Part shown: positions 17,827-47,775 of the stretch, piece by piece | Layout: every line of letters starts with the position of its first letter | How positions within the stretch are numbered: position 1 is the first letter of the stretch | Origin: Limosilactobacillus oris DSM 4864 | Lineage (GTDB): Bacteria > Bacillota > Bacilli > Lactobacillales > Lactobacillaceae | DNA length: 64,000 bases | Assembly: GCF_001434465.1 (NCBI RefSeq) | Contig: NZ_AZGE01000003.1 | Span: 1-64,000, forward strand | Direction: 5' to 3' | Made by a program: the position numbers and the translations under genes | Notes under the pieces: model-generated | Seen by the model: the letters and a program-made list of their open reading frames with translations, nothing else | Told to the model about the DNA's origin: nothing | Database searches by the model: none

Positions 17827-17842
17827 TATCCTCGTTATGAAG

Positions 17843-17943
17843 CAAATTCCCGATAGGATTCACTTAATTGTGAAGATGCCTTGTAACCGCAACTACAAAA
17901 CTACTGTTAGAGTTTCGACTAGAATATGGGGGAATTAATAAAG
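17843..17943 (+). promoter_or_regulatory. SMK box (SAM-III riboswitch)
   Basis: The leader contains the SMK signature ATTCCCGATAGGAT and the downstream GATGCCTTGTAACCGC segment. AATTCCC (17845-17851) is complementary to the Shine-Dalgarno stretch GGGGGAATT (17928-17936). SAM binding would therefore hide the ribosome site and shut off translation. SMK boxes are known upstream of metK in Lactobacillales. Confidence 0.92.
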
Positions 17944-19179: not shown

Positions 19180-19425
19180 AATATTTTGATCGTAGGGGAA
19201 ATAGTAGCTGGATGAACTATCGACAGAGACCCGCTGGTGCTGTGAAGCGGGGATGGTTATCCGGTGAACTCATCCTAATAGATTGCCGCTGAACAGGAGT
19301 AGGTGGTGACGTCTAACCGCGTTAAGGCTTAGAGTGCTATGGGAATCCATAGAAAAACGGGTGGTACCGCGGATTAGATTTCGTCTCGGAGGAGCTTAGA
19401 CTCCTGCGGGACTTTTTTATTACGA
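19180..19425 (+). promoter_or_regulatory. T-box leader, leucine-responsive
   Basis: The specifier side reads GGTGAA-CTC-ATCC, with CTC (Leu) at 19269-19271. The conserved T-box CGGGTGGTACCGCGG is at 19358-19372. The terminator stem GTCTCGGAGGAG/CTCCTGCGGGAC is followed by TTTTTT. The bulge TGGT fits the A73 of tRNA-Leu. Confidence 0.93.
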
Positions 19426-34718: not shown

Positions 34719-34732
34719 TTAAAGCGCTTTCA
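34719..34732. promoter_or_regulatory. cre-like site
   Basis: TTAAAGCGCTTTCA matches the CcpA consensus TGWAANCGNTNWCA at all but the second base. It lies about 260 bp before the sigma-factor start and over the end of the minus-strand frame; relevance is uncertain. Confidence 0.35.
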
Positions 34733-34993: not shown

Positions 34994-35545
34994 ATGCGTT
35001 TGAAACAAGGACCACGGGGACGTGATGGCGGTAATGGGAAACAAGAAGAAATCTTTCAGCGGTACCGCCCGCTAATTATCAGGCTCTGGCGGCGCTACTA
35101 TGTTGCTGGCCTGGAATTTGCCGACTGGGAACAGGAGGCGCGGATGGTGATTGTCCGCGTTTTAGAGGTGTACCAGGGGAGCGAAGATGGTGAGCAGTTT
35201 AGTGGTTTTTTAAAACAGAGTCTGGTTAACCGCATCTTGGATTTATACCGGGCTCGGAAGGCTCACAAGCGGATTCCGGCAGGAGAAATTGGGGCATTGA
35301 CGCCGGAAGCTGAAGAAATGCTGCAAGATCAGCCGTGGCGCCAACCTGAGGAGCTGGTTCATGGCCGGTTCTGTCTGCGGCAATTGATTGCGGCTTGTTC
35401 ACCCTTTGAACGTCAGGTGTTGCTTAGTTTTAATCAGGGATATTCGATAGACGAAGTTGCGGAACGCTTGCAGTGCACGAAGCGTCAGGTACAAAGTGCA
35501 ATGGGGAGGAGCAGGAGGAAAATGATGAAGATTATCCAGTCATAG
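34994..35545 (+). CDS. Sigma-70-family factor, ComX/SigH-like
   Basis: The 183-aa protein resembles the alternative sigma factors named ComX or SigH in lactobacilli, which direct late competence genes in related bacteria. Region 2 is QRYRPLIIRLWRRYYV with EFADWEQEARMVIVRVLEVY. Region 4 is a helix-turn-helix (SIDEVAERLQCTKRQVQSA). The start at 34994 is preceded by CAGGGAG at 9 bp; the frame is open upstream but without a site. No anti-sigma gene is adjacent. Confidence 0.8.
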   Translation: MRLKQGPRGRDGGNGKQEEIFQRYRPLIIRLWRRYYVAGLEFADWEQEARMVIVRVLEVYQGSEDGEQFSGFLKQSLVNRILDLYRARKAHKRIPAGEIGALTPEAEEMLQDQPWRQPEELVHGRFCLRQLIAACSPFERQVLLSFNQGYSIDEVAERLQCTKRQVQSAMGRSRRKMMKIIQS

Positions 35546-35595: not shown

Positions 35596-35624
35596 TTGTA
35601 ATCGCTTACAAAAGATGGTATATT
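35596..35624 (+). promoter_or_regulatory. Promoter of the candidate small RNA
   Basis: TTGTAA and TATATT are separated by exactly 17 bp. The -35 box is overlapped by a perfect cre site. Confidence 0.7.
35597..35610. promoter_or_regulatory. Perfect cre (CcpA) site over the -35 box
   Basis: TGTAATCGCTTACA fits the consensus TGWAANCGNTNWCA at all positions. Its placement over the -35 and the upstream spacer predicts repression by CcpA when good sugars are present. Confidence 0.7.
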
Positions 35625-35630
35625 AAAGGC

Positions 35631-35922
35631 GTGGAAGGAAAAGTAAATGAGTCCATGATACGTCATGAAGTTCTCCCACCTGATAAAGTGCCGAAGGAAG
35701 TTAAGGAGTAGGCAGAAGCAACGTAAGTGTGACCTGAAATATCGTTTAGCGTTTATCTTTTAACAGTTGTGGTCACCAGGGTGCGCTTGAAGGGCGGTAA
35801 AAAAAGCGACTTTGCGGAAGTTTAGAATCAAAGATAGTTAATTAATCAGTTCCAGTGCAAAGTGGCGAGATTCCTTCCGTATGAGTAAAAGGCTGGGTAG
35901 AAACCCGGCCTTTTACTATTTT
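35631..35922 (+). ncRNA. Candidate CcpA-controlled small RNA, about 290 nt
   Basis: The unit starts about 7 bp after the -10 and ends at a 15-bp terminator stem (35884-35917, AGTAAAAGGCTGGGT with ACCCGGCCTTTTACT). Local helices include CATGA-TACG-TCATG (35654-35667) and GTGACC/GGTCAC (about 35729-35776). No long frame is open. An SD-like GGAAGG precedes a three-codon frame (ATG at 35647), whose TGA overlaps the ATG of an 18-codon frame (35655-35711), so a peptide is possible. The family is not recognised. Confidence 0.55.
35884..35922 (+). terminator. Terminator of the candidate small RNA
   Basis: A perfect 15-bp stem (two G:T pairs) with loop AGAA is followed by ATTTT. Confidence 0.85.
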
Positions 35923-36065
35923 AAATGGCAAGTCACCGGCGGGTGGGACGACTGTTGCGGAAGTGGTACTCGACCGACCTGAAAGCAGCGGCCTCATCCA
36001 GTGGTGGAGGAACGGGGGGGGGGGAGTCATTTTTCAAAAAATAATAAATTAATGCAAAATACTGC

Positions 36066-36093: not shown

Positions 36094-36131
36094 AATTATT
36101 GTTGTCTGATTGATAACAACTAAATAGCGAT

Positions 36132-36215
36132 GCCCCAGTGGCGGAATTGGCAGACGCGCAACGTTCAGGTCGTTGTATGGGTTTCCATGTACAGGTTCGA
36201 ATCCTGTTTGGGGCA
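36132..36215 (+). tRNA. tRNA-Leu (anticodon CAG)
   Basis: This is a class II tRNA. Acceptor GCCCCAG pairs with TTGGGGC, with a G:T pair at position 7. The anticodon stem is CAACG/CGTTG with loop TTCAGGT, giving CAG. The CCA end is not encoded. It is isolated from the main tRNA array and has its own promoter. Confidence 0.94.
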
Positions 36216-36313
36216 TAGGGTTAGCTCGGTAAATGTTGATTTACCGGGCTTTTTCTTTGTCGGTGTTTCTAGGTGTGCATTGCCAGAATCTCAATCGGGG
36301 GAAGGATTGTTCA

Positions 36314-39617: not shown

Positions 39618-39855
39618 CATAATAAGCAATGACCGAAAGAGTAGTGAGTCGTGTAGTGCCTAGCGAGGGCCAGTTGGTGAAAGGGCCTGGCTGCTGACTG
39701 ACGAATGTAGCTCGGGAGCTGATTGGCTGAACCTTTATTAGGCTGATCCGGTTCATCACCGTTACCAAATGAATGAGGGGAGTCATGACTTGACTCAATT
39801 TAGGTGGTAACGCGAGCAATCGTCCTATCAGAAATGATGGGGCGATTTTTTTATT
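39618..39855 (+). promoter_or_regulatory. T-box leader, valine-responsive
   Basis: Stem I has AGTA on the 5' side and GACGAAT-GTA-GCTC on the 3' side, so the specifier is GTA (39707-39709), matching tRNA-Val(TAC). The T-box TTAGGTGGTAACGCG is at 39800-39814. The terminator (about 39818-39855) ends in TTTTTTT. The bulge TGGT fits A73 of tRNA-Val. Confidence 0.92.
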
Positions 39856-47379: not shown

Positions 47380-47775
47380 ATAAAGCAAATGACAATGAAC
47401 AGACTAGTAAAGTGCTTCTAGCAGCTAAGAGAGTCCAGGCTGGTGGGAATGGACCTGTTAAAGTACTTGAATCACATCTGTGAGTTGACCTTCTGAAGCC
47501 TAGTAGGTTGGTCCGGGGTCGCCCGTTACAGCACGGAGTTTATCATAATGAACTCGCTAAGGCCAGTTACCGTGAGGGACTGGCAAGATGAGGTGGAACC
47601 GCGGAAACGCCCTCGGAGCCAAATTGGCTCGGGGGTGTTTTTGTTTTCCAGCGAGGTGGGCGCAGACATGATGAACTTACCGAGGCGGGTGCTGTGAAGC
47701 GGCCGCAAACTGAGGTGGTACCACGATTGATTCGTCCTCTAGGATCCGGTTGGATTCTAGGGGACTTTTTGTTTA
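47380..47775 (+). promoter_or_regulatory. T-box leader with two antiterminator/terminator modules, proposed His-responsive
   Basis: Stem I has AGTA opposite TTGAAT-CAC-ATC; by analogy with the valS leader the specifier is CAC (His, 47473-47475). TCA (Ser) is the alternative register. Module 1 has GAGGTGGAACCGCGG (47589-47603) and a terminator (stem 607-639, then TTTTTGTTTT). Module 2 has GAGGTGGTACCACG (47712-47725) and a terminator (734-765, then TTTTTGTTT). Only one Stem I is seen. The bulges read TGGA and TGGT, and neither pairs with C73 of tRNA-His at 682. Confidence 0.85.

Follow-up and report, generated by a model that had tools for sequence, protein, structure and literature searches.

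We asked what kind of gene occupies positions 35596-35922 of the window, the whole 64-kb stretch of DNA that was analysed. The original prediction had placed there a free-standing small-RNA unit with a promoter covered by a perfect cre site, local helices and a 15-bp terminator, lying between a sigma-factor gene and a tRNA gene and perhaps also encoding a small peptide. Sequence and comparison together identify the stretch as a free-standing RNA gene, in which an extended -10 promoter and a cre are followed by an RNA of about 250 nt plus terminator (~290 bases, Table 1). The flanking genes are as claimed (sigma-like gene, 34994-35545; tRNA-Leu gene, 36131-36216), the TTGTAA-17-TATATT promoter is present at 35596-35624 with a TG ahead of the -10, and the terminator was located with its 15-bp stem at 35884-35917. 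The promoter match alone is unremarkable, with 5 such sites in 3 kb against 4.3 expected by shuffling. The cre is more distinctive: it is the sole zero-mismatch TGWAANCGNTWWCA site in the 64 kb, and its left half falls inside the -35 box. When up to one mismatch was allowed, the same pattern gave 7 matches on both strands of the 64 kb (2.27 expected; 3 of 100 shuffles reached 7). A second, near-cre palindrome with one mismatch per strand (34719-34732) lies upstream of the sigma-like gene, within the region that parts a CAAX-protease gene from the RNA in the window species.

Table 1. Features of the RNA gene, in positions of the window
Feature	Position	Strand	Basis or remark
-35 box, TTGTAA	35596..35601	+	promoter scan; TTG[TAC]AA in most homologues
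cre TGTAATCGCTTACA, overlapping the -35 box	35597..35610	+	same position in 43/43 segmented copies
Extended -10, TGG TATATT	35616..35624	+	promoter scan; homologues
Structured RNA, proposed 5' end to 3' strand of P1	35631..35878	+	ends inferred, not mapped
P1 closing helix, 5' strand GGAAGGAA	35633..35640	+	ends located by motif; constancy partly by construction
P2 hairpin, varies between species	35649..35675	+	minimum-energy fold; outer three pairs outside centroid
P3, 5' strand	35680..35688	+	9/9 pairs changed on both sides
P5 hairpin TGCC..GGCA, GAA (35693-35695) opposite AGTA (35707-35710)	35689..35714	+	43-copy comparison
j1 joining strand, near-invariant, GAAGCAACGTAAGT	35715..35728	+	alignments
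P4, 5' strand GTGACC	35729..35734	+	4/6 pairs changed on both sides
P4, 3' strand GGTCAC	35771..35776	+	covariation count, A2
j2 joining strand, near-invariant, CAGGGTGCG	35777..35785	+	alignments
P3, 3' strand	35786..35794	+	covariation count, A2
P6, 5' strand CTTTGC	35810..35815	+	2/6 pairs changed on both sides
P6, 3' strand GCAAAG	35857..35862	+	covariation count, A2
P1 closing helix, 3' strand TTCCTTCC	35871..35878	+	ends located by motif; constancy partly by construction
Intrinsic terminator, 15-bp stem and T-rich tail	35884..35922	+	terminator found in window

How widely is this RNA distributed? Searched at the DNA level, 30 of 56 genomes contained matches, and the strong ones were all in Limosilactobacillus; four weak ones (L026, L028, L029 and L030) are not homologues and do not match covariance model R2. 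A first covariance model (R1), built from an alignment (A1) of 24 of the DNA-search matches, recognised 26 of 396 genomes of the family, namely 19 of the 22 listed Limosilactobacillus and 7 Paucilactobacillus, i.e. two of 40 genera. With model R2 the RNA was detected in 40 of 50 Limosilactobacillus genomes and in all seven Paucilactobacillus genomes; these genera include common probiotic species. A pattern scan of one genome for each of 84,980 species returned 38 stretches, which by title belong to Limosilactobacillus or Paucilactobacillus or carry no label beyond Lactobacillus or Lactobacillaceae. Outside the two genera, none of the genomes sampled (396 from the family, 295 from the order and 299 from the class) gave a convincing match. 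Eight weak model matches elsewhere (E 0.0015-0.1 per genome, about chance level for hundreds of genomes) lack the full conserved core, and several resemble coding DNA by eye. No copies were found in phage, plasmid and viral-contig collections. With a distribution limited to two genera, the RNA is unlikely to have a housekeeping role.

The RNA is also missing within Limosilactobacillus: in the ten genomes of the genus that lack it, laxer filters gave chance-level scores only (E 0.9 or worse). In one further genome, G027, the copy (L019 1368-1572) is decayed, with a degenerate promoter and cre and part of helix P4 lost, and is still recognised by R2. As 10 of 50 genomes lack the RNA and G027 has a decayed copy, the gene is, on genomic grounds, dispensable, and it is evidently being lost in some lineages. 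Against Rfam 15 no family scored over threshold, and a permissive threshold added sub-threshold, chance-level matches only, such as RsaH in L025 (E 4) and ncr1015 at the 3' end and terminator of L016 (E 0.13). No published description of the RNA was found, which is weak evidence of absence as most subscription journals lie outside the literature searched.

For the comparison of individual copies we used 43 distinct sequences chosen among those fetched, 36 from Limosilactobacillus and 7 from Paucilactobacillus. The set excludes the non-homologues L026 and L028-L030, L009/L087, which is cut by a contig end, the decayed G027 copy, which has lost its promoter (L019/L058), the G099 copy, whose -10 failed the filter and whose cre has one mismatch (L047/L038), and L095, which is cut upstream and whose RNA is identical to that of L007. 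A terminator lies within 150 nt of the RNA in 38 of the 43 copies under a strict rule. In the L. vaginalis group (L011, L012, L014, L081 and L099) there is seemingly an extra hairpin between RNA and terminator, and the terminator starts 59-63 nt downstream of the RNA.

The genes around the RNA vary by species. In Limosilactobacillus it mostly lies behind a CAAX-protease gene (by Pfam on the window copy and L074 only, by inspection for the rest). The sigma-factor neighbour named in the original prediction is real and sits in the window between the CAAX-protease gene and the RNA, but it is a local feature, as the nearest upstream frame at other Limosilactobacillus loci with upstream sequence is, by inspection, mostly the protease. 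A LacI-type regulator directly precedes the protease gene in the coleohominis group (L074; others by inspection), and in the window a PfkB-family kinase stands between these two genes. In Paucilactobacillus, the RNA follows the acetolactate decarboxylase (budA) gene in P. vaccinostercus, P. suebicus, P. wasatchensis and G096, and probably also in P. kaifaensis. It follows a PLD-family gene in P. oligofermentans, and in P. nenjiangensis (L066 2234-7999) it comes directly after a ribose operon in which Pfam recognises RbsD, ribose-5-phosphate isomerase, transporter and sugar-binding genes; taken with the LacI-type regulator near some Limosilactobacillus copies and the PfkB-family kinase of the window, this link to ribose may be more than chance. 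Downstream, 19 of the 45 loci read, with some species represented twice, have a YbjQ-like gene in the same orientation (Pfam on the L. reuteri copy), whereas the mucosae and coleohominis groups and Paucilactobacillus have other genes on either strand and the window has the tRNA gene. As the neighbours differ while promoter, RNA and terminator stay joined, the RNA is a unit of its own.

Next, we asked whether the cre belongs to this unit. It is located at -34 or -35 from the proposed 5' end in all 43 copies, 16 times with no mismatch, 24 times with one and three times with two, and it persists in Paucilactobacillus despite the different gene location; it is not universal once the decayed G027 copy is counted. 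Most of the 43 copies have TTGNAA together with an extended TATATT -10. The claim of a free-standing RNA unit with conserved helices is thus borne out: 40 of the 50 genomes of the genus carry a homologue, and the position of the cre is constant in 43 of 43 copies. Where a promoter includes its own cre, repression by CcpA is the expected outcome. Because the cre is conserved over the -35 box and CcpA is known to behave in this way, the RNA is in all likelihood repressed by CcpA, which would occlude the promoter, and there are good grounds to infer, as the natural reading of the promoter sequence, that the RNA is synthesised once preferred sugars become scarce. Comparable cases are described in two reports: a cre over the -35 box of 6S RNA in about a third of species of lactic acid bacteria (PMC8414754), and the S. 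aureus small RNA RsaI, which CcpA represses at high glucose and which is released from repression by glucose starvation (PMC9266662), as is predicted here.

We then asked whether the RNA has a conserved fold. In the 43 copies the elements follow each other in the order P1, P2, P3, P5, j1, P4, j2, P3 return, P6 and P1 return, and compensatory changes across these copies keep P1, the three-way junction P3/P4/P5 and the 3' hairpin P6. For P2, no consensus spanning both genera was found. Covariation was counted for P3, P4 and P6, without P1 and P5, in a plain MAFFT alignment (A2) of 32 of the 43 copies, a count independent of hand placement and motif location. In A2, 92.5% of cells were paired, and 15 of 21 pairs had double changes. 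There were 106 double-change cells as compared to 35.7 in shuffles, and 0 of 500 shuffles were as high, although relatedness alone can beat such shuffles. When the partner was slid by 1-3 columns, pairing fell to 33-49%. On a tree of the 43 copies we counted 54 compensatory double events versus 1-15 with slid partners, and 61 pair-breaking changes versus 130-166; 41 of these 61 were in P3, chiefly at its outer end. The local helices of the original prediction are therefore kept in related genomes. Folding energy was less informative: a single-sequence fold of 35631-35922, which includes P1 and the terminator, gave z = -2.7, while the junction core of the window alone was not more stable than shuffles (z = +1.4). 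As the folding energy of the window core is not notable, the case for structure rests on covariation.

Sequence conservation is highest in the joining strands and not in the hairpin loops. In almost all of the 43 copies j1 reads (A)GAAGCARCRTAAGN and j2 reads CRGNGTGCR. In P5, GAA is present in 41 of 43 copies and the opposing AGTA in 43 of 43, the latter partly by construction. Ends and core were found by motif search, which helped the constancy of the outer P1 pairs, AGTAG, j1 and partly GAA; in A1, whose sequences were collected independently of the core motif, 24 of 24 share AGTAG and most of j1 without change. Hand placement was used for the linker columns of 17 copies, for several P5 positions and for the P6 arms in L066 and L091. 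We take the GAA/AGTA of P5 to resemble a loop E or sarcin-ricin module, which serves elsewhere as a docking site for proteins or RNA. The lysine riboswitch and the T-box are structured RNAs that hold this AGUA/GAA motif. Their likeness to P5 is that of a recurrent 3D module only, and neither family has an Rfam match at the locus.

What could such an RNA do? We find it rather probable that it is a stand-alone, CcpA-occluded RNA that acts in trans through its folded core and adjusts low-sugar metabolism. When preferred sugars run short, the RNA would be made. The comparative evidence shows that it folds into a closed multi-branch structure, in which the three-way junction with GAA opposite AGUA and the two joining strands is the part under strongest selection. 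The core would then act in trans, with the docking of a protein or other cellular partner as the most likely mode, and this action would adjust metabolism in low sugar. Docking is the weakest step, a candidate role suggested on weaker grounds by the location of conservation: the sequence is fixed at the junction, while that of the hairpin loops and of the C-rich stretch on the 5' side drifts or is lost. Conservation focused on a junction rather than on a seed is unusual for a catabolite-controlled small RNA and points to a protein or ligand partner. The RNA family is well defined and new to the group of L. reuteri, L. mucosae, L. vaginalis, L. pontis and their relatives, for which the literature searches found no described trans-acting RNA of such kind. 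Its promoter switch and its fold are fixed, some species have the RNA and others lack it, and the gene is dispensable on genomic grounds, so that the RNA can readily be put to experimental test.

The chief alternative to action through the core is base pairing, which we regard as possible but doubtful. The RNA would then be a trans-acting antisense small RNA of the RsaI/RoxS type, whose fold presents a seed, e.g. the C-rich stretch after P2, for pairing with the Shine-Dalgarno regions of sugar-regulated mRNAs. RoxS of B. subtilis and RsaE, small RNAs of central metabolism in Firmicutes, act by a seed; neither has an Rfam match here, nor did the RNA match any Rfam small-RNA family of Firmicutes in sequence or structure over threshold. 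The regulation would fit, as the CcpA-repressed RsaI pairs with Shine-Dalgarno sequences (PMC9266662), and a cre at the promoter is found here in all 43 segmented copies and is lost in the decayed G027 copy. A conserved C-rich seed, however, is not found: 24 of 43 copies have UCCC, CCCC or CUCC in the P2 region, and the 19 without it are those of the mucosae, coleohominis and secaliphilus groups, L015, L067 and all seven Paucilactobacillus. The RNA thus differs from RsaI: a C-rich seed is not common to all copies, the conserved junction is large, and Rfam gives no match to RsaI. Sites complementary to the joining strand j1 numbered 57 in 10 genomes, of which 10 are the RNA gene itself, as compared to 35 in a reversed control; without the RNA gene the surplus is modest (47 versus 35), and part of it is one site common to several genomes. 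The seven j1 loci read yielded no target, and none of them is at a translation start: three are antisense to an apparent ribosomal protein S18, two are antisense to a YajC-like gene and two are inside long coding frames.

The core might alternatively bind a ligand. It is improbable, although conceivable, that the near-invariant three-way junction is an aptamer-like core which binds a small metabolite of the sugar-starved state and is active in trans. The ribose and acetolactate neighbours would make a pentose or pyruvate intermediate the candidate metabolite, and one RNA would then join CcpA-controlled synthesis to metabolite-controlled activity.

Could the structured RNA instead act in cis, as a riboswitch or attenuator in the leader of the downstream gene? 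The YbjQ-like gene found on the same strand in 19 of 45 loci would suit such a leader, but the downstream genes differ between groups, as described above, so that a YbjQ leader is rejected as a general role. In addition, the terminator stems differ in sequence by eye and share no alternative pairing with P1, and the terminator stretch of several copies bears a TATAAT of its own. We therefore consider a cis-acting leader quite unlikely.

The RNA is even less likely to be a small mRNA. The claim that the unit contains no long reading frame holds, the longest forward frame wholly inside it having 32 codons (35665-35763), and homologues likewise contain no full-length coding frame. The predicted peptide fared differently. 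The frame from ATG 35647, which overlaps the ATG at 35655, and the 18-codon frame are both present as predicted, yet neither this nor any other reading frame is kept throughout the family: among the 43 copies the 18-codon MIRH... frame is limited to the window (L001), its near relative L035, L004 and L077, in which it is similar and of the same length. L078 has a longer frame with a similar end, and the frames of other copies are unrelated. Five of the 43 copies, including L. reuteri (L082), have no forward frame of at least 12 codons. The likeness of the peptide frames can be attributed to a shared start in the P2 hairpin and a shared end in the conserved P5 loop, and the base changes follow base pairing. 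A conserved peptide gene is thus rejected, and a message for an 18-residue peptide from ATG 35655 is very improbable.

Finally, a diverged 6S RNA (RF00013) is the least probable of these readings. In its favour, the Rfam 6S model finds no 6S in the window's genome (E<=0.001), and PMC8414754 describes 6S of lactic acid bacteria as a small RNA tied to carbon supply, with the overlap of cre and -35 box mentioned above. That report also places the 6S gene between rarA and uspA and describes the RNA as a rod with a central bulge, whereas the window RNA has a multi-branch fold, with a CAAX protease gene, a sigma gene and tRNA-Leu as neighbours, and gives no match to RF00013 at the gathering cut-off. 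Co-occurrence of both genes in the same genomes refutes the identity: G004, G006, G007, G021 and G029 hold a canonical 6S over the Rfam cut-off on another contig in addition to the Limosilactobacillus RNA, and G027 holds one beside its decayed copy. The Rfam model detected 6S in only 10 of 47 Limosilactobacillus genomes, and in the others 6S is probably too diverged for this model in the search used. The RNA is not RNase P RNA either, as that of the genome is at G000:C1:20631-21004.

Elsewhere in the window, a run of eleven G (36014-36024) lies between the RNA and the tRNA gene and is a possible slippage or assembly spot, and Rfam matches comprise a SAM-III (SMK) riboswitch (17835-17943) and three T-box leaders (19180-19391, 39620-39830 and 47386-47742).
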